From assembly GCA_003246475.1 (NCBI GenBank), contig QKAL01000230.1:1-35999 (forward strand): a stretch of DNA of 35,999 nucleotides, read 5' to 3'. This document shows, one piece after another, positions 8,421-35,176 of this stretch. The DNA is from Lentisphaerota bacterium (lineage in GTDB: Bacteria; Verrucomicrobiota; Lentisphaeria; Victivallales; SZUA-371). A program made the position numbers and the translations under genes. The notes below the pieces were generated by a model that did not search any database, was not told the DNA's origin, and saw only the letters and a program-made list of their open reading frames with translations. Position 1 is the first letter of the stretch. Each line of letters starts with the position of its first letter.

Positions 8421-9848
8421 TTATAAATTCAGCGGAAAAATCAGTAGCGATTGTAAGACGGGATGTGCATCCGCCGCCGTAATTTTAAAATGATAATCCT
8501 GTTCCGGAGGGAATTGCCAGCACGTTGTCAACGCAATTCGATTATCCAGATATAATTCTACGACGGAGCAATCGACAAACAAACGGAAAGAAAATTCTTC
8601 CGTCATATGGTCTGTTAGTTTAAAAGAAACGTTACCGCAGGAAACGTTTTTTGAAATCAGATCAACCATCGCGGAGTAAAAAAGCGTTTCTTCTCCGGCG
8701 GCAGTTTGCAGTGCAAGTTCCAGCCATGGTACGCCATGGCAGATAATGTGTCCCGATACTTCAAAAACCCGACCGGCACTGAGTTCCTGTATATATGTCT
8801 TTCGCAACGAGATGAATGGAGGGAATTTCATTTCGCTTTGTCGAAGCAGCTTAAGTTCATCAGCGGGCTCCAGCTGCAACGTATTATCCTGTGCCATCGA
8901 TAGAACACGGGGTAGAGAAAGACACCCGCTCCAATCGGTGTTCCCTTCACAGAAGCCGTGATTCCAGCCCAGTATAATCCACCTGCCGTCTGGCGTCTTT
9001 AACAGGTTGGAGGCGTAGAAGTTGTAGCCGTCGATGATACCGTGGTCTTCAGGGATGAATTTTAAAGCCTCCGCATCAAAATGTCCGATAAAATATTCCG
9101 TACAAATGCTCGTCTTGTTTGAAAGCAGTAATATATGCCGTTCGCCGAGCCGGATCAAATTTGGGCATTCGAGATGGTGGCACTTTTCTCTGCTGCCTGG
9201 ATATTCAAAAACCACACCGCGATTTTGCCACTGACGCAACTCGCTATTATCCGCCTCATAGATTACTACAACCGGGTGATCCGGCTTTCCGTTCGGACCC
9301 CGTCGGCTGGCATTGGTAACCATGAAATGGCGATCGCCGTCCTCAAAATAGAAGGGGTCACAATAAATAATAAGCCCTTCGGCCTGCGACGTATTATCAT
9401 TAAAAGAGGCATATGGATCTTCCTGATTCCAGAAAATCAGGTCGGAACTACCCTCTACTCCCCGTAGTTCGGCTCCACCGTAAAAGATGATCGGAACATT
9501 TTGTGAATTTATGACACAGCACCCGGAACAACAATTTTCCTCTCCTGCCTCTGGACGCGGAATCAACGCTACCGGCAGGTGTTCCCAGTGTACCAGATCC
9601 CTGCTGCGTGCGTGACCCCAGTGCATGTTTGCCCAATGTGCGGCATATGGATTATGCTGGTAAAAAATATGATAGTATCCTTCATGATAAATAAGGCCGT
9701 TGGGATCTCCCATCCAGTTGCCGGGACTATGGAAATGAATGGTTGGTCGCCGATGGTCGAATGCCGCCGTTGAAGCCGCCGCCCATGCGGCGGCAGTCGG
9801 TTGGCGAACAGTTTTCGGTAGCGAGGCAATATCTTGCGGGATAAGCAT
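8421..9848 (-). CDS. Glycoside hydrolase family 32 (beta-fructosidase/sucrase type)
   Basis: Retaining beta-fructosidase acting on sucrose, sucrose-phosphate, levan or inulin-type fructans. The five-bladed propeller starts at FHSPGNWMGDPNG, with nucleophile D48. The transition-state-stabilising Asp is D164 in YCDPFYF, where the family normally has RDP, so Arg is replaced by Cys. The acid/base Glu is E227 in HHLECPNLI. A C-terminal beta-sandwich with LFVDCSVVELYLDN (about residues 415-430) is the usual GH32C domain. There is no signal peptide, so the enzyme is probably cytoplasmic, although the gene before it encodes an exported protein. The ATG directly follows the TAG of that gene (TAGATG), indicating coupled translation. 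It is the last gene of cassette A, whose LacI regulator probably senses the sugar. Confidence 0.92.
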   Translation of the reverse strand: MLIPQDIASLPKTVRQPTAAAWAAASTAAFDHRRPTIHFHSPGNWMGDPNGLIYHEGYYHIFYQHNPYAAHWANMHWGHARSRDLVHWEHLPVALIPRPEAGEENCCSGCCVINSQNVPIIFYGGAELRGVEGSSDLIFWNQEDPYASFNDNTSQAEGLIIYCDPFYFEDGDRHFMVTNASRRGPNGKPDHPVVVIYEADNSELRQWQNRGVVFEYPGSREKCHHLECPNLIRLGERHILLLSNKTSICTEYFIGHFDAEALKFIPEDHGIIDGYNFYASNLLKTPDGRWIILGWNHGFCEGNTDWSGCLSLPRVLSMAQDNTLQLEPADELKLLRQSEMKFPPFISLRKTYIQELSAGRVFEVSGHIICHGVPWLELALQTAAGEETLFYSAMVDLISKNVSCGNVSFKLTDHMTEEFSFRLFVDCSVVELYLDNRIALTTCWQFPPEQDYHFKITAADAHPVLQSLLIFPLNL

Positions 9849-11334: not shown

Positions 11335-12000
11335 TTAATTGGTGATATCGTCGTAACGGTGCCACTGTTTTCCATCATCGGTAAAGAACTGCTTTGAGGC
11401 AACGTGACCGTCAAGATGCAGGAAATTGTTTCTTCCATGATGGCGAATCCCGTCGGCTCCGGCATTGCTGTCCGAAGCCAGAATATAACCGCCCGGATCG
11501 CTTCCGCGGTTTCTCGGTCTGGTTGCTCCGTTCAAAAGATATTGTCCCGCGGACCCGGAGCTGCCGCGTCCCAGCCCTCCGAAGTAGTTGTAAGACATGA
11601 TGTTGCCGCTGTCGTTAAGATCCCATTTGCGGCCCTTAGCCACATTGGGGTCGGATGGACAGCTGACCAGATCCTCTTTGGTGAGATAGTTTTCCAGAAA
11701 CAGATAAATCAAGCCATGGCTGAGGTTATTGTTGTGTGCGTAATAACATATCCAGTTAAGACCGTATGGGAAGGGGTCGTTAGAAAGGGATAATGGTGGA
11801 AGGTAGTCGTTATAGGAATCTGCATACATGGTAATGGTCAAGCCGAGTTGCTTCAGGTTTGAGGTGCATTTTATTGCCCGGGCTCGTTCCTTGGCTTTGT
11901 TCAATGCAGGCAGCAGCATTGCGGCCAGAATTGCGATGATCGCAATAACAACCAAGAGTTCTATTAGAGTAAATAATTGGAATTTGTTTTTACTTTTCAT
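11335..12000 (-). CDS. Pilin-like (pseudopilin) protein with H-x9-DG C-terminal motif
   Basis: A 221-residue protein with an N-terminal type IV prepilin-like segment: short basic leader, then [20 protein letters not shown], including the conserved Glu at +5, and the long helix continuing [13 protein letters not shown]. Position -1 to the expected cleavage site is Leu instead of Gly. The globular part contains paired Cys ([15 protein letters not shown]), a glycine-rich loop, and at the end [12 protein letters not shown], the H-x9-DG motif of the large Planctomycetes/Lentisphaerae pilin-like family. Its role is unknown; surface or periplasmic exposure is likely. The start at 12000 is fixed by AGGAGA six bases upstream; the in-frame ATG at 12027 has no such site. 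It lies 44 bp after the LacI gene. Confidence 0.88.
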
Positions 12001-12006
12001 CTTACG

Positions 12007-12012
12007 TCTCCT
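12007..12012 (-). promoter_or_regulatory. Ribosome binding site deciding the pilin-like start
   Basis: AGGAGA on the minus strand, six bases before ATG 12000. It makes the short leader form (MKSKNKFQL before FTLIELL) the probable product rather than the nine-residue longer form. Confidence 0.7.
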
Positions 12013-12044
12013 GCTTTTATAGTTCATTTAAAAACCTCCAAAAA

Positions 12045-13067
12045 TTATGGTTGAAGTTTCTTCACTGATTTGCGGATGACCAGTTCAGCGGGAAGTATTT
12101 TGTTAACACTTTCCATCGTCCCACCGTTAATCAGGCGCAGTGCGGATTTAGCGGCATATTCTCCCATTTCAAACAATGGCTGATGTACGGTGGTCAGCGG
12201 TGGTTCGATGTAACGAGACAATTCATAGTCGTCAAAACCTACAATAGAGATATCTGCCGGGACACGAATACCCGCGTCGTTCAGATAACGCAACATGCCA
12301 TAGACCATTTCATCGCTCATGGCCAAGGCTGCAGTGGCATTGAATTGCCCGCTGAAATAGTCCTGAGCCATCAGGCGTCCAGCCTCCATCGATGCCACGC
12401 GGTGTGTCAGCTTGACGACCAGTTCCGGGTCGAATGAAATATTATTTTCCGCCAGAACCTGGCAGTAGACCTTTAGGCGGTCTTCATGGTCCTTGGAACT
12501 CATATTGGCGCAGAAAAGTACGATCCGGCGGTGTCCTTGCCCAATCAAAAACTCCATGGCCTGGCGTGTTCCCTGTTCGTTATCCGCATCAACATAATAT
12601 ACGCCTGAAGCATCAACTTGGTCACCAATAATGATTACCGGGATTCCCGCACGCTGCATATAGCTGATAAAGTGCGAATGCTTGCCGATTAGAATCACGA
12701 CGTCGCAACCGTGCTCCATTACGGTTTTTACCACCATTTCTGACTCTGCCTGTGCGGGAGAAAGATGGATCATTGACAAGTCTATACCGGCTTCCGAGCA
12801 GAAATTCATAATCCCCTGCATGATAGTCGATGAATAGTGATCCATGCTAGACACCAAGTCCCGGATCATTACGAATCCTATCTGCCCTGCCCGGTTGCGC
12901 GATTGCCGCGGCCGGAACTGCATCTCTTCCATAATCGTCAGTACCCGTTGCCTGGTCTGCAGATTTACCGATGCTGACTGGTTCAGGATTCGCGATACGG
13001 TTGCCGCCGAGACCCCGGCTTTTTTGGCTACCGAATAGATCGATACTTGTTGATTTTTAACATTCAT
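12045..13067 (-). CDS. LacI family transcriptional regulator (cassette A)
   Basis: Sugar-responsive repressor or activator of 340 residues. The N-terminal LacI helix-turn-helix is intact: VSIYSVAKKAGVSAATVSRILNQ, residues 8-30, with the hinge near residues 50-58. Residues 65-335 are the periplasmic-binding-protein-like effector domain (IGFVMIRDL, YYVDADNEQGTRQAMEFLIGQGHRRIVLF, ADISIVGFDDYELSRYIEPPLTTVHQP). The last pattern is typical of LacI/GalR proteins. It is the first gene of the minus-strand cassette followed by pilin-like, glycosidase-like and GH32 genes, so fructan- or sucrose-type sugars are the logical effectors. A consensus promoter lies 50-80 bp upstream, and phased TTTCA repeats lie in the presumed leader, where autoregulation could act. 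Confidence 0.93.
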   Translation of the reverse strand: MNVKNQQVSIYSVAKKAGVSAATVSRILNQSASVNLQTRQRVLTIMEEMQFRPRQSRNRAGQIGFVMIRDLVSSMDHYSSTIMQGIMNFCSEAGIDLSMIHLSPAQAESEMVVKTVMEHGCDVVILIGKHSHFISYMQRAGIPVIIIGDQVDASGVYYVDADNEQGTRQAMEFLIGQGHRRIVLFCANMSSKDHEDRLKVYCQVLAENNISFDPELVVKLTHRVASMEAGRLMAQDYFSGQFNATAALAMSDEMVYGMLRYLNDAGIRVPADISIVGFDDYELSRYIEPPLTTVHQPLFEMGEYAAKSALRLINGGTMESVNKILPAELVIRKSVKKLQP

Positions 13068-24063: not shown

Positions 24064-24192
24064 GTCAAATGAGATGATGAAACAAATCACTGTGACGTGC
24101 ATAGTATGACAGCGTTATTTTGAAAATGTTCCAGGTATTTGTAAATATGTTGGCTTTCTTTCTTAAATATTAAAGAGATTAATGCAAGAATG

Positions 24193-24210
24193 CGTGAATA
24201 ATTATGCACG
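24193..24210. promoter_or_regulatory. 18-bp near-perfect palindrome, candidate operator
   Basis: CGTGAATAATTATGCACG: only one symmetric pair mismatches (A against G). It lies 50 bp upstream of the -35 box of the LacI promoter and 127 bp upstream of its start codon. The position suits an activator or a distal repressor site. Confidence 0.5.
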
Positions 24211-24259
24211 TTCAATTCATGTTTATTTGCATAAAGATACATTTTATTCATTTTATGTA

Positions 24260-24288
24260 TTGCATTTATTCATGACACCGTTTATAAT
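24260..24288 (+). promoter_or_regulatory. Sigma-70 promoter of cassette B
   Basis: TTGCAT (24260-24265), a 17-bp spacer and a perfect TATAAT (24283-24288), 31 bp before the LacI start codon. The right arm of an ATACAT/ATGTAT inverted repeat touches the -35 box. Confidence 0.65.
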
Positions 24289-24319
24289 TAATGTTATAGA
24301 CAAATCAAACGAGGAATTT

Positions 24320-25333
24320 ATGGATAGAGAAAAAGTCAGCTGCAGCAATATTACGATGACCGATGTTGCCGAGCGGGCCGGAGTGTCACAAGCGACGGTA
24401 TCCCGGGTATTGAGCAATCATCCCCGGATTAACAATTACACCCGGCAAACGGTGATGCATGCCATACAGGAGCTGGGGTATCGGCATGTATCTCTGAACG
24501 GCGAGAACGGACGTGTTTCTGCTCCGACGACGCTTGGACTATTGATTTGTCCGCTTCCCGAACAAAAAAATCCCTTGGGCCTGGACTTTTTCAACGAGAT
24601 AATTGCCGGTATCCAGGAGGTAGCGCTGGATCATCATCTGGAGATTGTGCTTGCTACTTTGCCGGCGGGGGCGGACAAGGTGATGTTGGCCAATGTGACG
24701 CAGGAGCGCATGGCCGGTCTTATTTTGCTGGGCTATCCCTCCGAGCAGCTTACCACCCGTCTGCGTGAGGAAAAAATTAAATATGTGGTTGTGAGCGGAG
24801 ATGACAACATCGATGACCGAAGCGATATGATTACGGTCAATAATATCGAGGGCAGCATCAATGCCTGCCGTTATCTTCTGTCCCGCGGATGCCGGCGTCT
24901 GGGATTTATCGTGTCGCATCAGGACTCGTTCCGGATGACGGGGTTTCAGGTGGAGCTTTTAAGACATGACCTCTCGATTGCCGAAAAGGATGTCAGCGTT
25001 GTGGAGTCCACTGACATATCCGCTTTTATCGAGGAAATCCATTGCTGGATCAATCGGGGAGATTTGCCGGATGCTATCGTTATCAGTTTTTATGATGCGG
25101 CCATGGCGGTTAAAACGTTGCTGACTTTAAATGGGATCAAAGTTCCTGAGAACGTGGTGTTGTTTTCATTTAAACATCGGTTGAGCGACGACCAGATTCC
25201 CTGTATCCATCTGTCCCCCTCCATGCTGGGAAAAAAGGCGGCGCGGCGTATTATGGAGATGCTGCGGGATCCCAGCGATCCGCCTCACCGTATTGTTGTG
25301 CCGATGCAGGCCATTTTTAATCTTACAAATTAA
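24320..25333 (+). CDS. LacI family transcriptional regulator (cassette B)
   Basis: Sugar-responsive regulator of 337 residues. The helix-turn-helix ITMTDVAERAGVSQATVSRVL is at residues 11-31, followed by the hinge (LGYRHVSLN) and a PBP-like effector domain (TLGLLICPLPEQ; DMITVNNIEGSINACRYLLSRGCRRLGFIVS; CIHLSPSMLGKKAARRIMEML). The start at 24320 has GAGGA at 24311-24315 and lies just downstream of a promoter. An in-frame ATG 138 bp earlier would place the promoter and palindrome inside the gene and add 46 residues unlike any LacI N-terminus. The pilin-like gene follows after 35 bp without a terminator, so regulator, pilin-like protein and glycosidase should share one mRNA. Confidence 0.93.
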   Translation: MDREKVSCSNITMTDVAERAGVSQATVSRVLSNHPRINNYTRQTVMHAIQELGYRHVSLNGENGRVSAPTTLGLLICPLPEQKNPLGLDFFNEIIAGIQEVALDHHLEIVLATLPAGADKVMLANVTQERMAGLILLGYPSEQLTTRLREEKIKYVVVSGDDNIDDRSDMITVNNIEGSINACRYLLSRGCRRLGFIVSHQDSFRMTGFQVELLRHDLSIAEKDVSVVESTDISAFIEEIHCWINRGDLPDAIVISFYDAAMAVKTLLTLNGIKVPENVVLFSFKHRLSDDQIPCIHLSPSMLGKKAARRIMEMLRDPSDPPHRIVVPMQAIFNLTN

Positions 25334-25368: not shown

Positions 25369-26151
25369 ATGAGAGAAAAGAGCGGAACAGGTCAAAAGAG
25401 TTTTACACTTATCGAGTTGTTGGTGGTGATTGCGATCATTGCGATTTTGGCATCCATGTTGCTGCCGGCGTTGTCGAAAGCCAGGGATAAGGCGCATGAA
25501 ACACAATGTACCTCGAACCTGAAGAGTCTCGGTACCGCTACAATTATATTTGCAGATGCGCAGGATGGTTATTTGCCCCTGACCAATGGCGGCGGTTACG
25601 CAGCTAACTGGGCGTTTCACCTGGTCAATGCGGGATTGCTGAAGAATTCCGAGGACCCGTCCAACGGAAGTTATAATGGTAGCTGGATGTATTTCAATAA
25701 TCAGCTCTCGGTCTGCAAAGGGATTAAACGTAAAATGGTTGGCGACAACAGCGATCTTTTGAGCTGTCCTTCCATTCGTGGCACTGAAATGGCCGGAACC
25801 GGGATAAATTATTACATCAATGCCTATGGTTCTCCCCGCTACAGCATGGGAACCGGACCCAGTGATGATGGCAAAATAAAAGGTAATCCACTGGTCAAGA
25901 TCAAACGTCCGAGCGTACTGGTTCTGGCATATGACGGAGCCGCATTCAGCGGCGGTTCGATTACGATGGATGTCGGACCGATCTGGAACGCCTGCTGGAA
26001 TGATTATAACAATATGGGTGGAGCGCTGTCCCGGCGGCATAACAAAATGTCCAACACTCTGCGAGCAGACGGTCATGTGCAGAAAATTGCTTTGCAGGAG
26101 GTCGATAACTCCTCGTTCCCGGCGGTCGAATGGCATGTGCAGCAATTATAA
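25369..26151 (+). CDS. Pilin-like (pseudopilin) protein with H-x9-DG C-terminal motif
   Basis: A 260-residue paralogue of the cassette A pilin-like protein. After a 12-residue leader comes [20 protein letters not shown] with Glu at +5, then [22 protein letters not shown]. The residue before the Phe is Ser, not the Gly expected by prepilin peptidase. The globular part has paired Cys ([15 protein letters not shown]) and ends with [16 protein letters not shown], the H-x9-DG motif. AAAGGAG lies ten bases before the ATG. The gene sits between a LacI regulator and a large secreted glycosidase, exactly as in cassette A. A surface fibre, a glycan-capture protein or a secretion pseudopilin are possible roles; none is proven for this family. 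Confidence 0.9.
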
Positions 26152-26166
26152 AATTTAAGGAGCGAA

Positions 26167-28890
26167 ATGAGTGTTAGAACCATATTGATATTGCTGGTGA
26201 TGTTGGCCGCATCAGTCGGCTTTGCTGGCAATGAGCAAGTTAATCTGGCGATTGCGAAGGATGTGAAGTTCTCCTACCTCGATAACGATGGCAATGAGCT
26301 CGGGGCAAAGTATTTCAACGACACGACCGGTAAAATGTTGATTGGGGGTATGGATACGGAAGTCGTGTCGTCCAAGTACAGCAGTAACGAGAAGAAACGC
26401 ATGGCGGTACGTTTCGAGTTTCCGGTGGAGATACACCCATCATCAATAGATTTCAACTGGATGTGGGGACATAACGAAATGCAGTGGTTTGACCGGGCGG
26501 AAGTCTTTGTCGGCAACAAAGCCGGTAACCTGCCGCTGGTGAAAACCTTCAATAACCGTCGCATCAAGCAGAACTCGATCCCGATTTCCATTAAACTACC
26601 GCCTTGCAAGGGGCGGTATGTTGAGATTGTATTCTCGCAGGATGCGAATGTAAAATATTTCATGATGTCGTTCAGCTGTTTGCGGATTATGGCTACGGCG
26701 AGTGATCTTGCTCAGATGAACGCTTCTTCCGGAGATATGTTGCTGTCGTTAGTTCGCCAAGCCCCCTGCAATCTTTTTGAATATGGTAAACCGGCAACTA
26801 TGCCGTTGGAGCTTACTGCTCCGAAAAGCGGCCGGGCCACTTTAAAATACACTCTTCGAAACTATTTTGGCGATATTGCCGAACAACAGGAAAGCAGTGT
26901 AACATGCAAGGCCGGGAAAAACATTTTTCCTATTACTATGGAAGGGTTGGAAACAGGTTATTATGTGTTGGAGGTTGCCGCGGAGTTAAACGCAGCTAAA
27001 CGCATATACAAAGCAGAATGTCAGGCAAGCATGGGGGTGGCCGGTTTTCGGGTACGCAATATGGCGGAAGCGCTTGCCGCCGACTGCCGTTTCGGTATCC
27101 AGGGCGGTTTTGGATGTCCGGAGAGCAATGACGCCATGGTGAAGCTGGGGTTGAACTGGCAGCGAAGCTTTGTCCAGTTCGGACCGAATGTCGGCAAGAA
27201 TCCTGCTCAACCGTTTGAGGATTCCGATAACTTCATCAAGGCTCTGGTCCAGGACGGCTCCCGTATCATGATGCTCGAAATTAAAACCTTCCCCGCCGAC
27301 TGTTATGATGTTAAACGTTTCGGCCCGATGAAAGGCGACTGGTTTATCAATACTGTTCCGGTCAAGGCGAAATATCTTGAATATATCAAGAAGCTTGTCA
27401 GCCGTATTCCGAAAGAACAGAAGTTTTTTGAGATCTGGAATGAGCCGTGGGACATCAATCCGGCGGAATTTGCCGAGACTGCAAAGATGACTGAACAGGC
27501 TATCCGTCAAGCCCGCCCCGACGCGATCATCGGTCCCAACCTCGGGCCGATTGCTAACCTGGTAAAGATTATCGAGTACGGTGGTTTGGACAAGATGGAC
27601 ATGATAACGATTCATCCTTATGCGCCGGATTTCAAATCCAGTCCGGAGAAGGCGGAAATCCGGCAATGGGTCAAGGCTTTTAAGGCGACGGTAAAGAAAA
27701 ATCTGCGGCGTGAGCTTGATCTTTATGTAACAGAAATCGGCTGGCCGACCCCGAAGGGCGGGCCAATCGTTAATACCGAGCAGGAACAGGCTCAATATAC
27801 CGTTCGTGCCTGCCTGGAACTTTATGCTGAGGGGATTAAGGGTATCATGCCCTACTGCCTTGGACAACCAGAGACCGACCCCAATGAAAAAGAACACTTT
27901 TTCGGCTTTGTCCGTAAAAATCTTGAACCCAAGCCGGTTTTGCTGGCCTATGCCAATCTGGCATGCATGATTGAAGGATCTAAATACCTCGGGGATCTGT
28001 GGCTCGGGCCGGACATCGGTGCGATGCTGTTCTGCCGTAACGGTATTAATACACTGGTGGTTTATACGCCGGGAAAACCGCAGAAAATCCTGTTGCGGCC
28101 GGATGCCGCCGCCGTGACCATTACCGACATCATGGGCGCGAGGCAGACTGTTTCAGTAAAAAATAACCGGCTGTCTCTGACCTTGACCGGGGATCCTTTA
28201 TACATCGTGGGGGTGGGCGATAAGCTCAAGGCTTTGATTACCGATTCAACACGTCAACGCTGGACCGATGTTTACAAACGGGAGATGCGTCCGGCCATGC
28301 CTTTTACTTCGCCACCACAGATTGACGGTGATTTTTCGAAGTGGCGGAATTTCCCGAAAGTCAGGATTGTCGATACTGCGGTTTCAGAAAAGGATGCTTC
28401 CGCAACTCTGCAGATAGGCTATGACAGGAATTTCCTCTATCTGGCGCTTCAGGTTACTGACGATGATCCCGGGGTAAATGACCGGGAGGGGGCGCATGTC
28501 TGGGATGGAGACTGCCTTGAGTTGTTCTTCTCTCCATTACCGGAAAACGCCATCCCGGGGTTCCTCAAGGAAAACGATTACCAGCTGCTTATTGCGCCTA
28601 CGTCCAAATCCGGCAATCCGGTGGTGGTGTTCGGGGATGTATACCGCCGAGGACAGGAGGTTAAAGGAGTCAAAACATTTTTTAAGAAGCGCCCCGACGG
28701 CTGGGATGCCGAAATCGCCCTGCCCCTTTCGGCCTTTGCCGGTGCGGTCGGCGAGAAGGGACGTAAATGGGCTCTTGAGGCCAGTCTCGATGATGCCGAT
28801 AAAAAACGTGGAAGAGTCCAGATCAACTCCAACGGGCGCGGTGATAACTGGTCCAACTCCAGTGTCTGGTCACTGCTGGAACTTAAATAG
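26167..28890 (+). CDS. Secreted clan-A-type glycoside hydrolase with C-terminal CBM9-like domain
   Basis: A 907-residue exported enzyme. The signal peptide is residues 1-20 (LILLVMLAASVGFA). Residues 25-180 look like a discoidin-type beta-sandwich and 190-290 like an Ig-like domain. Residues 300-600 are a TIM barrel with acid/base E426 in FFEIWNEPWDI and nucleophile E523 in LYVTEIGWP, the arrangement of GH5/GH39/GH42-like clan-A retaining enzymes. A small beta domain (610-690) follows. Residues 716-905 resemble CBM9, a xylan/cellulose-end-binding domain (PPQIDGDFSKW; DRNFLYLALQVTDDD; WDGDCLELFFSP). The substrate is probably a plant or algal polysaccharide, but the GH family number cannot be fixed by eye. 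AAGGAG precedes the start; the unit ends in a strong terminator. Confidence 0.85.
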   Translation: MSVRTILILLVMLAASVGFAGNEQVNLAIAKDVKFSYLDNDGNELGAKYFNDTTGKMLIGGMDTEVVSSKYSSNEKKRMAVRFEFPVEIHPSSIDFNWMWGHNEMQWFDRAEVFVGNKAGNLPLVKTFNNRRIKQNSIPISIKLPPCKGRYVEIVFSQDANVKYFMMSFSCLRIMATASDLAQMNASSGDMLLSLVRQAPCNLFEYGKPATMPLELTAPKSGRATLKYTLRNYFGDIAEQQESSVTCKAGKNIFPITMEGLETGYYVLEVAAELNAAKRIYKAECQASMGVAGFRVRNMAEALAADCRFGIQGGFGCPESNDAMVKLGLNWQRSFVQFGPNVGKNPAQPFEDSDNFIKALVQDGSRIMMLEIKTFPADCYDVKRFGPMKGDWFINTVPVKAKYLEYIKKLVSRIPKEQKFFEIWNEPWDINPAEFAETAKMTEQAIRQARPDAIIGPNLGPIANLVKIIEYGGLDKMDMITIHPYAPDFKSSPEKAEIRQWVKAFKATVKKNLRRELDLYVTEIGWPTPKGGPIVNTEQEQAQYTVRACLELYAEGIKGIMPYCLGQPETDPNEKEHFFGFVRKNLEPKPVLLAYANLACMIEGSKYLGDLWLGPDIGAMLFCRNGINTLVVYTPGKPQKILLRPDAAAVTITDIMGARQTVSVKNNRLSLTLTGDPLYIVGVGDKLKALITDSTRQRWTDVYKREMRPAMPFTSPPQIDGDFSKWRNFPKVRIVDTAVSEKDASATLQIGYDRNFLYLALQVTDDDPGVNDREGAHVWDGDCLELFFSPLPENAIPGFLKENDYQLLIAPTSKSGNPVVVFGDVYRRGQEVKGVKTFFKKRPDGWDAEIALPLSAFAGAVGEKGRKWALEASLDDADKKRGRVQINSNGRGDNWSNSSVWSLLELK

Positions 28891-28901
28891 CCTCAAAACT
28901 T

Positions 28902-28938
28902 AAAATAACCGTCATTTTAACAAATGACGGTTATTTTT
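28902..28938 (+). terminator. Strong intrinsic terminator of cassette B
   Basis: A perfect 16-bp stem (AAAATAACCGTCATTT with AAATGACGGTTATTTT) around a 4-nt TAAC loop; the run of T at the 3' side of the stem completes the signal. Its near-symmetry means it could also work on the other strand. Confidence 0.88.
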
Positions 28939-29071: not shown

Positions 29072-32000
29072 ATGAGTAACAAAGCGTTGGTATCGATTAT
29101 GTTGTTACTGAGTGCCGTGATTTTGCGTGGCGATAACTGGGAGTGGACCAAGGGGGCCTGGCCTGATGGTTTGACTGGGGTTTTGAAGAAAAACCAACTG
29201 AAACCGGCACTTGTCAACTGGTCTGCTGATTTTACTCAGCGTGAGAACGGCGGAACGCCATTTGCAGTGGTCGGCCAATTTCTGGATGGTTACCGGGCAT
29301 ATGTGCAATACGACAATGTTGGTAAAAAGCTGATAATCGGCGGCGGACAGCACTGGATGAATGCCGCGGTAATATGGCGGTTTGAAGCGCCTGCGGGAAA
29401 AACATTTGTCGGCGGAACGGTGACTTTGGATGGAGAGGCTCACATCGCAGGTGGTATTCCAACACTTTCCTGTGCCTATGTAGGCGCCAGCAATTCTCTT
29501 GATCTGAGTACATACCAGGGAGCCGGAGGAGGATATTATAACTACAATTCTGCCGATTTTGCCAAAAACTGGTTTGGCGCATTCAATACTCGGGGAACGG
29601 TGACGGTAAATATTCCGGCGAACTGTAGCACATTTTATGTGGTTGCGGCGGTGGATCAGACAGCGGACTGGACGGCGTTGCAGTTGTATGTGTATAATCT
29701 GCAGGTCAACGCGGTTCTTGACAATAATTATGGCCTGAGCATTGTAACTAATCGGGACGATCCGCTTTGGGTTGCCGATGATGTGGATGACCCGCTGGAA
29801 ATATTGGTGGTATCGACTGGAGACAGCGCATTATCGCTTAATCCTCCGGCGGCGGTTGACTGGCAGCTTATCCGCCGCGGCAGCAGCGAGGTGGAATGCA
29901 GCGGGTATGACAGCTTTACAGACGGTTCAACCCATGTTGACTTGAAAATGGCCTCACCGGGATTTTATACCCTGAAAGTATTTGACAATCCTGCAATGAC
30001 CAATATGCTTGACCAGCAGGACATCGTTATTCTGCCACAGCAATATTATCCAGCCACCTCCGCCAACAGTATTTATGGCTTTTTCGGCAACGGCAGTGAT
30101 CGCAGGCTGTGCCATCTCTTTGGCTCCAGATGGTCCGTAGCATGCGCTCAGTGGGCATTTTTGCAGCCTGATGCGGCATTACCGCCGGATTTTGCCGGTC
30201 TTTACGACAATATCTGCCTTAACAATGACTGGGGCCTGGAAACGATTATTCATATTGATACGGCACCCGGGTGGGCTAATGGCGGAAATTCTTCATATTA
30301 TCCTCCGACATCGGCATTCCTGGGGAGCTGGCAAAGCTTCAACAATGCCGTGGCAACAGAATTGAAAGGTGCTGCGGTATGGTATGAAAGCTGGAATGAG
30401 ATCAACAATCCGATTTGTGCTCCGTTTTCTTCTCCATATGATGTCGCCACTCAGTTGAGTGTGGGCAAGCAGTTGATACAATATCAGTACAACGGACTGA
30501 AAAGCGCGGATTGGCACATCAACCTGGCTGGAGGGTGTTTCGCCGGTCTGCTAGCAGACTGGGTCGACGACCTCTATGTAAGCCCTTATAGCTGTAGTAA
30601 TTCAATGGATCTTGTCAGTGCCCATCCATATTGTGCCGATGATGGCAGCGGTATTCATAAATTACCACCAGAACCAAACCTTGTTCCCGCGCTGACGGCA
30701 TTCCGTGAGTCCATGAACAACAGCGGCGGTGCAGCGCATCCACTCTTCTTTACCGAATTCGGTTGGTATGTAGCCTCCGGTGCGACAACTCTTGAACAGC
30801 AGGCACGGTGGGTTGCCCGCCAGTATGCCATTGTCAACGCCTATCGCGAGGCGTTGAATTTAAAAGCAATGCTTCATTTTACCTTTACCAGCGAACCGCA
30901 TTATTCGATTTTTGAATCCGGCCTGCGTGAAGCGTATCAACATCGTTTTCGACCGGTTATTAACGCTTTTTCCACCTCGTCTTCTCTGCTTGCCGGTACA
31001 AACCTTCTTCAGGCGGTACAGGATTATCCCGCGGTGGTCCGAGCCTATAAATTCCAGCGGGAAGATGAGATTATTTATGCCTGCTGGGCCACGGAAAGCG
31101 CGACGGAAAAAACTGTAACCTTGCCGGTGGATGAATCCCAGACCATGGTCCGGATAGGATTAATGGGAGAAAAAAGTTTTCAACTGGTATCTCCCGGAAT
31201 GGCAGTTAATCTGCCGGAGAACAGTGATCCGATTTACCTGGTTCAGTCCCAGAAATCGAAAATAGACTCTTTGCGCAATCATCTGGTTTTCAGTGTGGAA
31301 TGTGGAAAGAACCTGGATACTGGAAGTTTGACTTTGGCCAATACCGGGTGTTCTGGGACGCTGTCGGTATTGGGTTGTTCCGATCAGGGTTGGGTGTCTT
31401 GTCCTGGAAATGAGACTATACTTGCGACTGGAGGGGGGCCTGTTGATCTACCACTAACATTTGCCACCCGAGACCTGAATCCCGGCAAATACACTGCGAC
31501 AATCACCTTGACCGACAGCAATAATATTGCGCCTGAAAAGCAGGTCACAGTCACACTTCATGTTGCGGATTTGAACCGGATGACATTGCAGGATGGCGAT
31601 AATGGTGCGTCAAGTGAAAAATCGATTGAATTGAGTGAAGGAACTACGGTGGTCTGGGATAAATACGATGACTTGGCCACGGCCAAAAGTAAGTTTTATG
31701 CAGTGGATGGACAAGCGGCTAACGTGGTGGCATGGAATCCGGATCTGGATCGCGGAGATTGTCTGCAGTTGGGTTCTCTGTCCAGTTGGGCCAATGCTTC
31801 TGTTACGCATAAATTCACTGCCCCGGAAGGGTGCCGCTTTACCGGCGGCCAGATTCAGATGCAGGCTCTCAGTTATGGAGGGACTCCTCCGTCGTTGGGA
31901 TTGTACGTTACCAGCGGTTATAGTTCGAATTATGGCGACTTCAACCTGAGCCAGTCCGGAACGCTCTATGGCAGCGATGTACATGCGCCCCCGGCGGAGT

Positions 32001-33775
32001 GGACTTGGGATAACTGGGTCGTAAACATCCCCGCCGGAGCCAGTGAGTTTTATGTGACCATATATCTACCTGCAGACTACTCGCATGTCAGCGTCGGTTA
32101 TCTTCGCCTGGCTGAAGTTTCCTTCGGGGCAACAATGCAGCAGGGCGACCAGGGATCTGTTATCGGGAAAAGTATCACCCTCAAAGAAGGTAACGGTATT
32201 ATCTGGAATACCGGTGTTTCTGCGGCACAGATGATGGGTACTTTGTATTCCGCGACGGCGCAGCTACCTGACATGATTCATTGGAATGTGGATCAAAGCC
32301 GTGGCGATTGTATTCAAATGGGATCGGTTTCAAATTGGAGTAATGCATCGATAACCCACAAGATTAAGGCTCCGGATGGAAAGGTTTTTTCCGGCGGCCG
32401 GATGAAGCTGACGGGAATGGGTTACTGGAGCGCGCCACAGATCGGGTTGTACGCAACAGAGAGTTTTTCTGCCAACTATGGCAATTTTGATCTTAACACC
32501 TGTGGTTCCATCTACGACAGTGACTACCATGCGCCCCCTGCGGCGTGGACTTGGGATACTTGGCAGATAGATATTCCGGTCGGAGTTTCGGAGTTCTACC
32601 TGACGGTACAACATACAACGGACTACCATGTGGTATGTTTGGGAGCGCTGACGGCAGAGGATGTCGTTTTTGTCAAGCCTTTCCAATATTCTTCCAGCGG
32701 AGAGATTGCAGGAAATTCGATCCAGGTAGTTGAAAATGCCATATACTCCGTGCTTCACAACCAGATGACCGAGACCCAGGCCAGGGATACAATCTATGCC
32801 GTATCTGCGGAAGACGGAGTAGTTGTCGATTGGAAGGTGGAGAGTTCCGGAACATGTCTGAATTTCGGCAATACCAATTCCACTGGGAACTCCGCTGTGA
32901 CATGGAAGTTTACCGCGCCTCCGGGAAAGGTATTTAAAAGCGGTCAGGTCCATGTTGACGGCTATACGTTCTTTGGCGCGGCGATGGTGAATCTCTATTT
33001 GACCTCGGCATATGCCAGTTCCGCGACCGGGGACTTTAATCTGTCTGCGTCGGGGAAACTCTATGATTCAGATTCTCATGCGACAGAGGCTGCATATCTA
33101 TGGAACGACTGGTACGTGGATGTCCCCGACGGGGTTTCCGAGTTTTACGTTACGGTTTCACATACACAGGATTTTTCCTGTTTTTCAATGGGACAGCTGG
33201 ATCTTCGCAATATTGTTTGTGCAACACCGCTGCAGGACGGTAAATTCGGAAAAATACTGGGTCACACTGTTGAAGCAAATACCGGGACAACGTGTCTTTT
33301 TAATTCGGCAATGACGGTTGAGGAGGTAAAATCCAAATTTTATGCGGTACTTGGACAAGAGGAGAATGCTGTCCGTTGGCAGGTTAATGCTCCTGGAGAC
33401 TGTATCAGCATGGGAAGCGCAACTAGCCGAGCGAATGGCTCTATTGTTCTTAAAGTCAAAGCGCCGCAGGGAAAGAAGTTTGTTGGCGGATATGTTGATC
33501 TTTCAGGAATGACCTATTTTGTCGGTGCGCCGATCAATCTATATGTGTCTACCGCATTTGCGGCCACAACTTCCGGTGCTGTTGACTTAACCGGTTGTGG
33601 AGTTATTAACATGGACGATCACTCGACTATCGGTCAGTGGCAGTGGAGCAACTGGCAGGTAAATGTGCCGCCGGATGTTTCAGAGTTTTATATCATTGTC
33701 GATCACGATGCGGATTTTGCCGGCTCATGTCTCCGCGAATTGACGTTGAGGGACATTATAACCGCCGACCAATAA
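29072..33775 (+). CDS. Giant secreted glycosidase-like protein with repeated C-terminal beta domains
   Basis: A 1567-residue exported protein. The signal peptide is about residues 1-20 (ALVSIMLLLSAVILRG). Residues 50-215 are a divergent copy of the C-terminal repeat (AVIWRFEAPAGKTFVGGTVTL; TVNIPANCSTFYVV). Residues 215-325 look like an Ig-type linker. Residues 330-690 are a TIM-barrel-like domain with E443 in WYESWNEINNP and E562 in FFTEFGWY, at the acid/base and nucleophile places of clan-A glycosidases. Residues 745-838 resemble a BACON/Ig-like domain (LTLANTGCSGTL; LNPGKYTATITLTD). Then four tandem units of 181-183 residues start at 839, 1022, 1204 and 1387. No sorting signal or membrane anchor ends the protein. 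The substrate is unknown; the repeats probably bind glycan. It is a single-gene unit between two terminators. Confidence 0.8.
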   Translation: MSNKALVSIMLLLSAVILRGDNWEWTKGAWPDGLTGVLKKNQLKPALVNWSADFTQRENGGTPFAVVGQFLDGYRAYVQYDNVGKKLIIGGGQHWMNAAVIWRFEAPAGKTFVGGTVTLDGEAHIAGGIPTLSCAYVGASNSLDLSTYQGAGGGYYNYNSADFAKNWFGAFNTRGTVTVNIPANCSTFYVVAAVDQTADWTALQLYVYNLQVNAVLDNNYGLSIVTNRDDPLWVADDVDDPLEILVVSTGDSALSLNPPAAVDWQLIRRGSSEVECSGYDSFTDGSTHVDLKMASPGFYTLKVFDNPAMTNMLDQQDIVILPQQYYPATSANSIYGFFGNGSDRRLCHLFGSRWSVACAQWAFLQPDAALPPDFAGLYDNICLNNDWGLETIIHIDTAPGWANGGNSSYYPPTSAFLGSWQSFNNAVATELKGAAVWYESWNEINNPICAPFSSPYDVATQLSVGKQLIQYQYNGLKSADWHINLAGGCFAGLLADWVDDLYVSPYSCSNSMDLVSAHPYCADDGSGIHKLPPEPNLVPALTAFRESMNNSGGAAHPLFFTEFGWYVASGATTLEQQARWVARQYAIVNAYREALNLKAMLHFTFTSEPHYSIFESGLREAYQHRFRPVINAFSTSSSLLAGTNLLQAVQDYPAVVRAYKFQREDEIIYACWATESATEKTVTLPVDESQTMVRIGLMGEKSFQLVSPGMAVNLPENSDPIYLVQSQKSKIDSLRNHLVFSVECGKNLDTGSLTLANTGCSGTLSVLGCSDQGWVSCPGNETILATGGGPVDLPLTFATRDLNPGKYTATITLTDSNNIAPEKQVTVTLHVADLNRMTLQDGDNGASSEKSIELSEGTTVVWDKYDDLATAKSKFYAVDGQAANVVAWNPDLDRGDCLQLGSLSSWANASVTHKFTAPEGCRFTGGQIQMQALSYGGTPPSLGLYVTSGYSSNYGDFNLSQSGTLYGSDVHAPPAEWTWDNWVVNIPAGASEFYVTIYLPADYSHVSVGYLRLAEVSFGATMQQGDQGSVIGKSITLKEGNGIIWNTGVSAAQMMGTLYSATAQLPDMIHWNVDQSRGDCIQMGSVSNWSNASITHKIKAPDGKVFSGGRMKLTGMGYWSAPQIGLYATESFSANYGNFDLNTCGSIYDSDYHAPPAAWTWDTWQIDIPVGVSEFYLTVQHTTDYHVVCLGALTAEDVVFVKPFQYSSSGEIAGNSIQVVENAIYSVLHNQMTETQARDTIYAVSAEDGVVVDWKVESSGTCLNFGNTNSTGNSAVTWKFTAPPGKVFKSGQVHVDGYTFFGAAMVNLYLTSAYASSATGDFNLSASGKLYDSDSHATEAAYLWNDWYVDVPDGVSEFYVTVSHTQDFSCFSMGQLDLRNIVCATPLQDGKFGKILGHTVEANTGTTCLFNSAMTVEEVKSKFYAVLGQEENAVRWQVNAPGDCISMGSATSRANGSIVLKVKAPQGKKFVGGYVDLSGMTYFVGAPINLYVSTAFAATTSGAVDLTGCGVINMDDHSTIGQWQWSNWQVNVPPDVSEFYIIVDHDADFAGSCLRELTLRDIITADQ
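31586..33772 (+). repeat. Four tandem protein-coding repeats of about 546 bp
   Basis: Units at 31586-32134, 32135-32680, 32681-33229 and 33230-33772 encode 183, 182, 183 and 181 residues. Each has an opening GxxxGxSI-like segment, a GDCxxxGS box, a THKFTAPxGKxFxGG box, a NLYxTSxxxxxxGDFNLxxxGxxYDSDxHA box, WxWDxWxVxxPxGVSEFYVT, and a closing strand. DNA identity between units is modest, so the duplication is old. Confidence 0.85.
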
Positions 33776-33792: not shown

Positions 33793-33824
33793 GCCCGTCA
33801 TTTTATTAAAATGACGGGCTTTTT
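33793..33824 (+). terminator. Intrinsic terminator of the 1567-residue protein gene
   Basis: A 12-bp perfect stem (GCCCGTCATTTT/AAAATGACGGGC) with a 3-nt loop followed by TTTTT, 17 bp after the stop codon. Confidence 0.9.
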
Positions 33825-34105: not shown

Positions 34106-34132
34106 CATGTAATAATTATGGAGGCGGTGAAC

Positions 34133-35176
34133 ATGTCGATACCTAAGAAAGCCGTTTTCGAGCGTTTGAAGGAAGAGCTGCGCTGCCGGATTGAAAAGGA
34201 TGAGCTGTCTTCTGGAATGATGTTGCCGTCAGAGCATAGTTTATGCAGGAGCTATAAGATCAGCCGGCCTTCTGTCCGCAAAGCGTTGGCGGCGCTTGAG
34301 AATACCGGCCTGATCTACCGGGTTCCAGGAAAGGGTTCTTATGTGGGGACCCGGCGGCAGGAACAACCGCGCTGGCAATTCAATATCGGGGTGGATATTG
34401 ATTGTAGCAATACTTCCGGAACAGAGTTGCTGAATGGAATGTTCAGCCGTTGCGGGACGGGTATCGCCAGACTGGTTTGGGTTGATGTCAACAATCTACA
34501 GTGTTTTGACGGAAAATATTTTGATGGTTTAATCCTGACACACAAACGCAGCTTGGATACAGGCGGGGAGCTTGCCCGTTGCGGTATCCCGGTAGTTGCG
34601 GTGAAGCATCTTCCTGATGAACCGTTGATGGCGTATGTGGGGGTGGATTATGCCAGAGAGGCGGAAAAAGCGGTGAACTGCCTTATGTCGATGGGACATC
34701 GGCAGATCGGTATGCTTTGTCGTTCCGGTGATCCTGCCGGCGATTTGTGCCGCCATGGTTTTGAGCTTTCCATATATCGTCAAGGCTTGACGGTGGCTCC
34801 GGATCATATATTGCAGTGTTCAAGTCGAGAAAACATGGTAAGGGAAATCCGGGCTTTTCTGGGACGAACCCGTTGCAGTGCGGTCTTCGTGGTGGATGAG
34901 TTAACGATGTTTGAATTATTCTGCGTCTGCAAAATTGAGGGAATAAACATTCCGCGAGACCTTTCCGTCATCTGTTTTGAGGATACGACAGCCGTTTCTC
35001 GACGTTTTGAGACAGGAATTTCCGAAATAAGAGTACCGACTGCCCGGATGGGTGAGTTGGCCGTTGATTACATCATTAACCGTCTTGTTACGCGTGATGA
35101 CGGAAGGGTCATGCGTACTATTTTGCCTGCTGAAATTGTGCTCCGGGACAGTTGCCGTGCTGTTATGCGGCATTAG
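34133..35176 (+). CDS. GntR-type DNA-binding / LacI-type sensor hybrid regulator (AraR-like)
   Basis: A 347-residue regulator. Residues 1-72 form a GntR winged helix (VFERLKEELRCRIEKDELSSG, then MLPSEHSLCRSYKISRPSVRKALAALENTGLIYRVPGKGSYV). Residues 80-345 form a LacI/PBP-like sugar-binding domain (DGLILTHKRS; VGVDYAREAEKAVNCLMSMGHRQIGMLCR; DLSVICFEDTTAVSRRFETGISEIRVPTARMGELAVDYI). The same combination is found in AraR of Firmicutes, so the effector is probably a sugar. ATG 34133 is chosen because GGAGG lies eight bases upstream; ATG 34118 would put that site inside the gene. A 20-bp palindrome overlaps its promoter. It runs tail-to-tail into the AraC gene, 15 bp apart, with no visible terminator. 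Confidence 0.92.
   Translation: MSIPKKAVFERLKEELRCRIEKDELSSGMMLPSEHSLCRSYKISRPSVRKALAALENTGLIYRVPGKGSYVGTRRQEQPRWQFNIGVDIDCSNTSGTELLNGMFSRCGTGIARLVWVDVNNLQCFDGKYFDGLILTHKRSLDTGGELARCGIPVVAVKHLPDEPLMAYVGVDYAREAEKAVNCLMSMGHRQIGMLCRSGDPAGDLCRHGFELSIYRQGLTVAPDHILQCSSRENMVREIRAFLGRTRCSAVFVVDELTMFELFCVCKIEGINIPRDLSVICFEDTTAVSRRFETGISEIRVPTARMGELAVDYIINRLVTRDDGRVMRTILPAEIVLRDSCRAVMRH

Follow-up and report, generated by a model that had tools for sequence, protein, structure and literature searches.

The locus raises the question of whether a domain of about 182 residues, occurring five times in a single predicted protein, belongs to a known family, and what it contributes to the enzyme on which it is carried. 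The protein is encoded in a window of 35,999 nucleotides (the whole stretch of DNA that was analysed) from contig QKAL01000230.1 of a Lentisphaerota bacterium. A multimodular glycosidase with tandem β-sandwich accessory domains is an already known kind of object. Lentisphaerae and related PVC bacteria contain many unclassified modules used in complex-glycan degradation, and a domain family that is tied to one GH39-like lineage and has multiplied fourfold within a single protein constitutes a compact and testable candidate for a new carbohydrate-binding module (CBM) family.

The open reading frame extends without a break over 1567 amino acids (29072-33775, + strand, as are all the parts of it given below); a strong Shine-Dalgarno sequence, aaaggagg, is located immediately 5' of it at about 29059, and a terminator-like stem follows it. 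The hydrophobic N-terminus (residues 1-19, 29072-29128) resembles a signal peptide, with a hydropathy peak of 3.1 over 9 residues, and the rest of the protein is devoid of transmembrane-like stretches; the product is presumably an exported, multidomain GH39-like protein. The first copy of the unit, N, comprises residues 20-216 approximately (29129-29719). It is followed by a β domain (about 216-320), a presumed (α/β)8 barrel of GH39-like type (about 330-660) and a second β domain extending to about residue 735 (together 29717-31276). This region was recognised by profile matches to PDB entries, the limits of its sub-domains being drawn with low confidence from the alignment and the predicted strands. 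A linker domain (residues 735-836, 31274-31579) is, as judged from its sequence only, probably Ig/BACON-like; a database search with it gave no significant match. The C-terminal part consists of the units R1 (residues 836-1020, 31577-32131), R2 (1020-1204, 32129-32683), R3 (1204-1385, 32681-33226) and R4 (1385-1567, 33224-33772), all defined by comparison of the repeats.

The arrangement of four tandem C-terminal copies and one divergent N-terminal copy, as claimed in the original prediction, was confirmed by BLASTP and by profile searches. The R units share 33-44% identity with one another (110-176 bits, E 1e-35 to 1e-60), and N shares 25-33% with them (35-44 bits, E 1e-6 to 1e-10). Since the best scores from 500 shuffles of the protein were 27-29 bits, neither similarity is due to chance. 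In the genome of the organism, which is 78% complete, the profile recovered all five copies, solely in this reading frame. Duplication by an assembly artefact was ruled out, because the R copies are merely 33-44% identical.

Nothing above cut-off was found for the unit in Pfam, NCBIfam or the sequences of the PDB, in agreement with the original prediction, which had been unable to match it to a CBM or structural family. The unit profiles A2 and A5 retrieved no sequence at E≤10 from a library built from all PDB entries; viral contigs and genome contigs searched with the unit alone gave no match, nor did plasmids searched with the whole protein. The Pfam family PF21254 (AGA-YXIM_GBD) matched R3 only, with 13.6 bits against a gathering cut-off of 27 (E 0.064). 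Pfam matches to MACPF_D2, mSLOG, Toxin_4, DUF4841 and NPCBM_assoc, each below cut-off and on one or two sequences, were judged to be chance. No PDB or Pfam sequence match linked the unit to the gingipain K domains (cleaved adhesin), and it exhibits no detectable sequence similarity to CBM61, with 8% identity in the structural alignment. No library among those searched has an entry for this domain family.

In the 137 genomes of the order the unit profile had no further match; the 198 genomes of the class yielded one more genome with a match (G371), and a sample of 388 genomes from the phylum yielded G371 and G192. The broader profile A5 found G192 only among the 346 genomes of the class to which G192 belongs. 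Weaker matches of the unit profile in G383, G330, G306 and others (E 0.003-0.08), which are unremarkable among 388 genomes, were not accepted, and hmmsearch of the reading frames at four such loci (G383, G330, G306 and G280) detected no unit domain. When genome contigs were searched with the alignment of unit and barrel, the locus of G371 (L046, from a Lentisphaerae MAG) and two loci of Planctomycetota (L047 and L048) were recovered; G192, which belongs to the phylum of the window organism as well, contributes two paralogues of the module (L039/L040). These relatives are built of unit, β domain, barrel and β domain, with 31-37% identity over about 720 amino acids, corresponding to residues 25-730 approximately of the window protein. 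A third barrel-module paralogue of G192 (L039:11950-13944, 664 aa, 28.5% identity) matches the window protein from residue 171, and its reading frame as called is without most of the N unit.

Each full-length relative found carries one unit copy ahead of the same GH39-like barrel, as in the window protein, but a single one; after the barrel these proteins end or, in those of G192, continue with fn3, CarboxypepD_reg or TSP3 domains. Because the relatives (L039/L040, L046, L047 and L048) keep an orthologous N-terminal unit and the barrel as one module, the N copy is an ancestral part of a GH39-like enzyme family of PVC bacteria. This was missed in the first reading of the DNA, and it is only the four-unit C-terminal array, present in none of the relatives, that is specific to this protein among the sequences found so far. 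In a tree of ten units R1-R4 form one clade (100/99) and the N copy of the window groups with the other N-type copies. As the tree is unrooted, it does not distinguish a descent of the array from N from an origin in a source outside the sampling.

The barrel between the repeats, described in the original prediction as clan-A-like, was supported by the profile of unit and barrel (A4), which matched the PDB entry 5jvk with E 1.1e-7 at positions 263-673. The GH39 β-xylosidases 2bs9, 1w91, 1px8 and 2bfg followed at 1e-4 to 9e-4. The structures 5JVK (Bacteroides cellulosilyticus WH2), 1PX8, 1W91 and 2BS9 share with the window protein the catalytic motifs WNE and TE. The putative acid/base E443, in WNE (30398-30400, + strand), and the putative nucleophile E562, in FTEFGW (30755-30757, + strand), are invariant in the alignments A4 and A6, and are aligned to the WNEP and the TE, respectively, of the GH39 structures. 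The enzymes 5JVK, 1PX8 and 1W91 belong to GH39, the two catalytic glutamates have been named for XynB, and in 5JVK a β-sandwich occurs both ahead of and behind the barrel (PMC6933502). Compared with 5JVK and the GH39 xylosidases, the window protein adds one 182-residue unit in front and four behind. With the Pfam model of GH39 (PF01229) the window protein gave no match at E≤10. The relative L041 scored 13.7 bits with this model, the cut-off being 26, and the matching region is the first of its barrels, outside the module. Because the model does not match the window protein, the barrel is best named GH39-like.

An alternative which concerns the barrel only, and is compatible with a carbohydrate-binding role of the units, is that it represents an unclassified clan-A family other than GH39, acting on a sulfated or uncommon glycan. 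The GH39 matches are at the profile level only, the relatives have sub-threshold Pfam matches to GH42, GH39 and Glyco_hydro_cc, and their modules adjoin sulfatases: in L047 and L048 the gene order is LacI regulator, prepilin-like gene, unit-GH39 gene and sulfatase, and a sulfatase is found near the module in G192 (L039) too. Against this, the best PDB match is to a GH39 enzyme over about 410 positions and all others below E 0.001 are GH39 β-xylosidases. Furthermore, the genome of the window has one Pfam sulfatase, and since this lies away from the locus, a sulfated substrate is unsupported for this organism. We regard the alternative as a serious but minority possibility. GH39 is also named in the ulvan literature; ulvan was considered as a substrate for this reason, and the locus gives it no support.

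Four conserved boxes had been listed in the original prediction, and not all of them extend to every copy. The element APxGKxFxGG is the most general, being found with small changes in all five copies. The box GDCxxxGS occurs in R1, R2 and R4, but it reads GTCLNFGN in R3 and its cysteine is missing from N; R2 and R3 have YDSDxHA unchanged, whereas R1 reads YGSDVHA, R4 reads INMDDHS and N has no recognisable counterpart; and the Trp-rich box is confined, among the five copies, to R1-R4. The conserved polar and aromatic residues are, in the numbering of R2, W52, W142, W145, D132 and H134.

A structure prediction of one unit was made on R2, with eight copies as input. The AlphaFold2 model (pLDDT 79, pTM 0.79) is almost all β and forms a jelly-roll β-sandwich. 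Its loop 116-140, which holds the conserved D-x-H, was modelled below pLDDT 50, so that no binding site is readable. A model of residues 20-735, which include unit N and the barrel, was poor (pLDDT 49); in this low-confidence model the strand order of unit N is similar to that of R2. In the fold comparison by VIA-align the top match of the R2 model was TmCBM61 (PDB 2XOM), a β-1,4-galactan-binding jelly-roll β-sandwich, with Z 12.3 and 2.6 Å over 133 residues, the unit being about 40 residues longer. It was followed by the C-terminal domain of an α-1,6-glucosyltransferase (Z 12.0), the adhesin domains K1-K3 of gingipain Kgp (Z 10.7-11.2), CBM4-2 (Z 10.2) and a porphyran-binding CBM (Z 10.0). 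Domains that do not bind carbohydrate (Eph, MAM, gingipain adhesin and Cry domains) scored nearly as high as the CBMs. The leading scores differ little, so that they support a class of fold but no class of ligand. The similarity of the modelled jelly roll to CBM61 is weak evidence, since the jelly roll is common. The original suggestion of a β-sandwich as in CBMs therefore stands as regards a predicted sandwich beside a clan-A-type barrel, but the same jelly roll is also common to adhesins, MAM, Eph and Cry toxin domains, so that glycan binding is a supposition drawn from a widely shared fold.

The unit has the β-sandwich fold usual for CBMs, as judged from the R2 model and its CBM61 and CBM4-2 matches, and it is a discrete domain joined to a carbohydrate-active enzyme, with copies on either side of the GH39-like barrel. 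A CBM-like reading of the unit is plausible and partly supported. It seems fairly probable that the protein is a secreted GH39-like glycosidase acting on a polysaccharide, in which the ancestral N-terminal unit, CBM-like in type, was supplemented by the array of four and both serve as carbohydrate-binding modules. The barrel, with E443 as acid/base and E562 as nucleophile, would cut a glycosidic bond with retention; the N-terminal jelly roll and the four C-terminal copies would act as carbohydrate-binding modules; and a single unit would bind weakly, the array anchoring the enzyme by avidity on a glycan that is repetitive or insoluble. Secretion, catalysis, the binding of glycans and avidity are all steps that we infer. 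It is tempting to go further and propose that the unit is a new CBM family tied to the GH39-like enzymes of PVC bacteria, whose tetravalent array, with its own D-x-H and Trp loop, is a high-avidity reader of one glycan; we consider this proposal evenly balanced. If it is true, the glycan bound by the array would reveal the substrate of the gene cluster.

The same array could instead be a device for adhesion or surface attachment, directed to the producer cell, a protein partner or another cell and not to the substrate glycan. The gingipain Kgp bears several cleaved adhesin domains on one secreted enzyme, and its K1-K3 have a jelly roll like that predicted for the unit and are among the best fold matches, although the context there is a protease and here a glycosidase. 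The separation of the R clade from the enzyme-linked N copy, and the Trp-rich and SDxHA boxes that the R copies have and N does not, would agree with such a function. However, the relatives, which have no array, consistently pair the barrel with a unit of this type at the N-terminus, the fold score of CBM61 is at least as high, and the C-terminus, as read from the amino acid sequence only, contains no cell-wall or sorting motif; adhesion therefore appears rather unlikely. It is still more improbable that the units are structural spacers or stabilisers without a ligand of their own, since, although β-sandwich accessory domains of glycosidases can confer stability or architecture and four copies might form a stalk, the tryptophans, D132 and H134 numbered above are kept among copies of 33-44% identity, which is more than a spacer requires.

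The genes around that of this presumed glycosidase, on the + strand like it, include regulators of sugar type. They comprise a LacI-family regulator (24182-25333), a prepilin-like protein with an N_methyl match and a DUF1559 match below cut-off (25369-26151), a barrel protein of 907 amino acids with a CBM9_1 domain immediately preceding the gene (26167-28890) and, downstream, a GntR/Peripla_BP_3 regulator of sugar type (34118-35176). A prepilin-like gene just 5' of the module is found also in L046, L047 and L048. In L046 (2074-6876) a homologue of the 907-residue protein (E 4e-27) is fused to the unit-GH39 module, and because the homologues are joined there in one protein it can be argued that the 907- and 1567-residue proteins act together. 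Two terminator-like stems with a nearly identical core (CGTCATTTTA and AAATGACGG), at 28901-28932, identified by eye, and at 33793-33819, flank the 1567-residue gene; as they frame it, the gene appears to be transcribed as a separate unit. Elsewhere in the window there is a further small sugar cluster, with a GH32-type glycosidase at 8421-9848 (PF00251, E 8e-53) and a prepilin-like protein and LacI regulator at 11335-13067.
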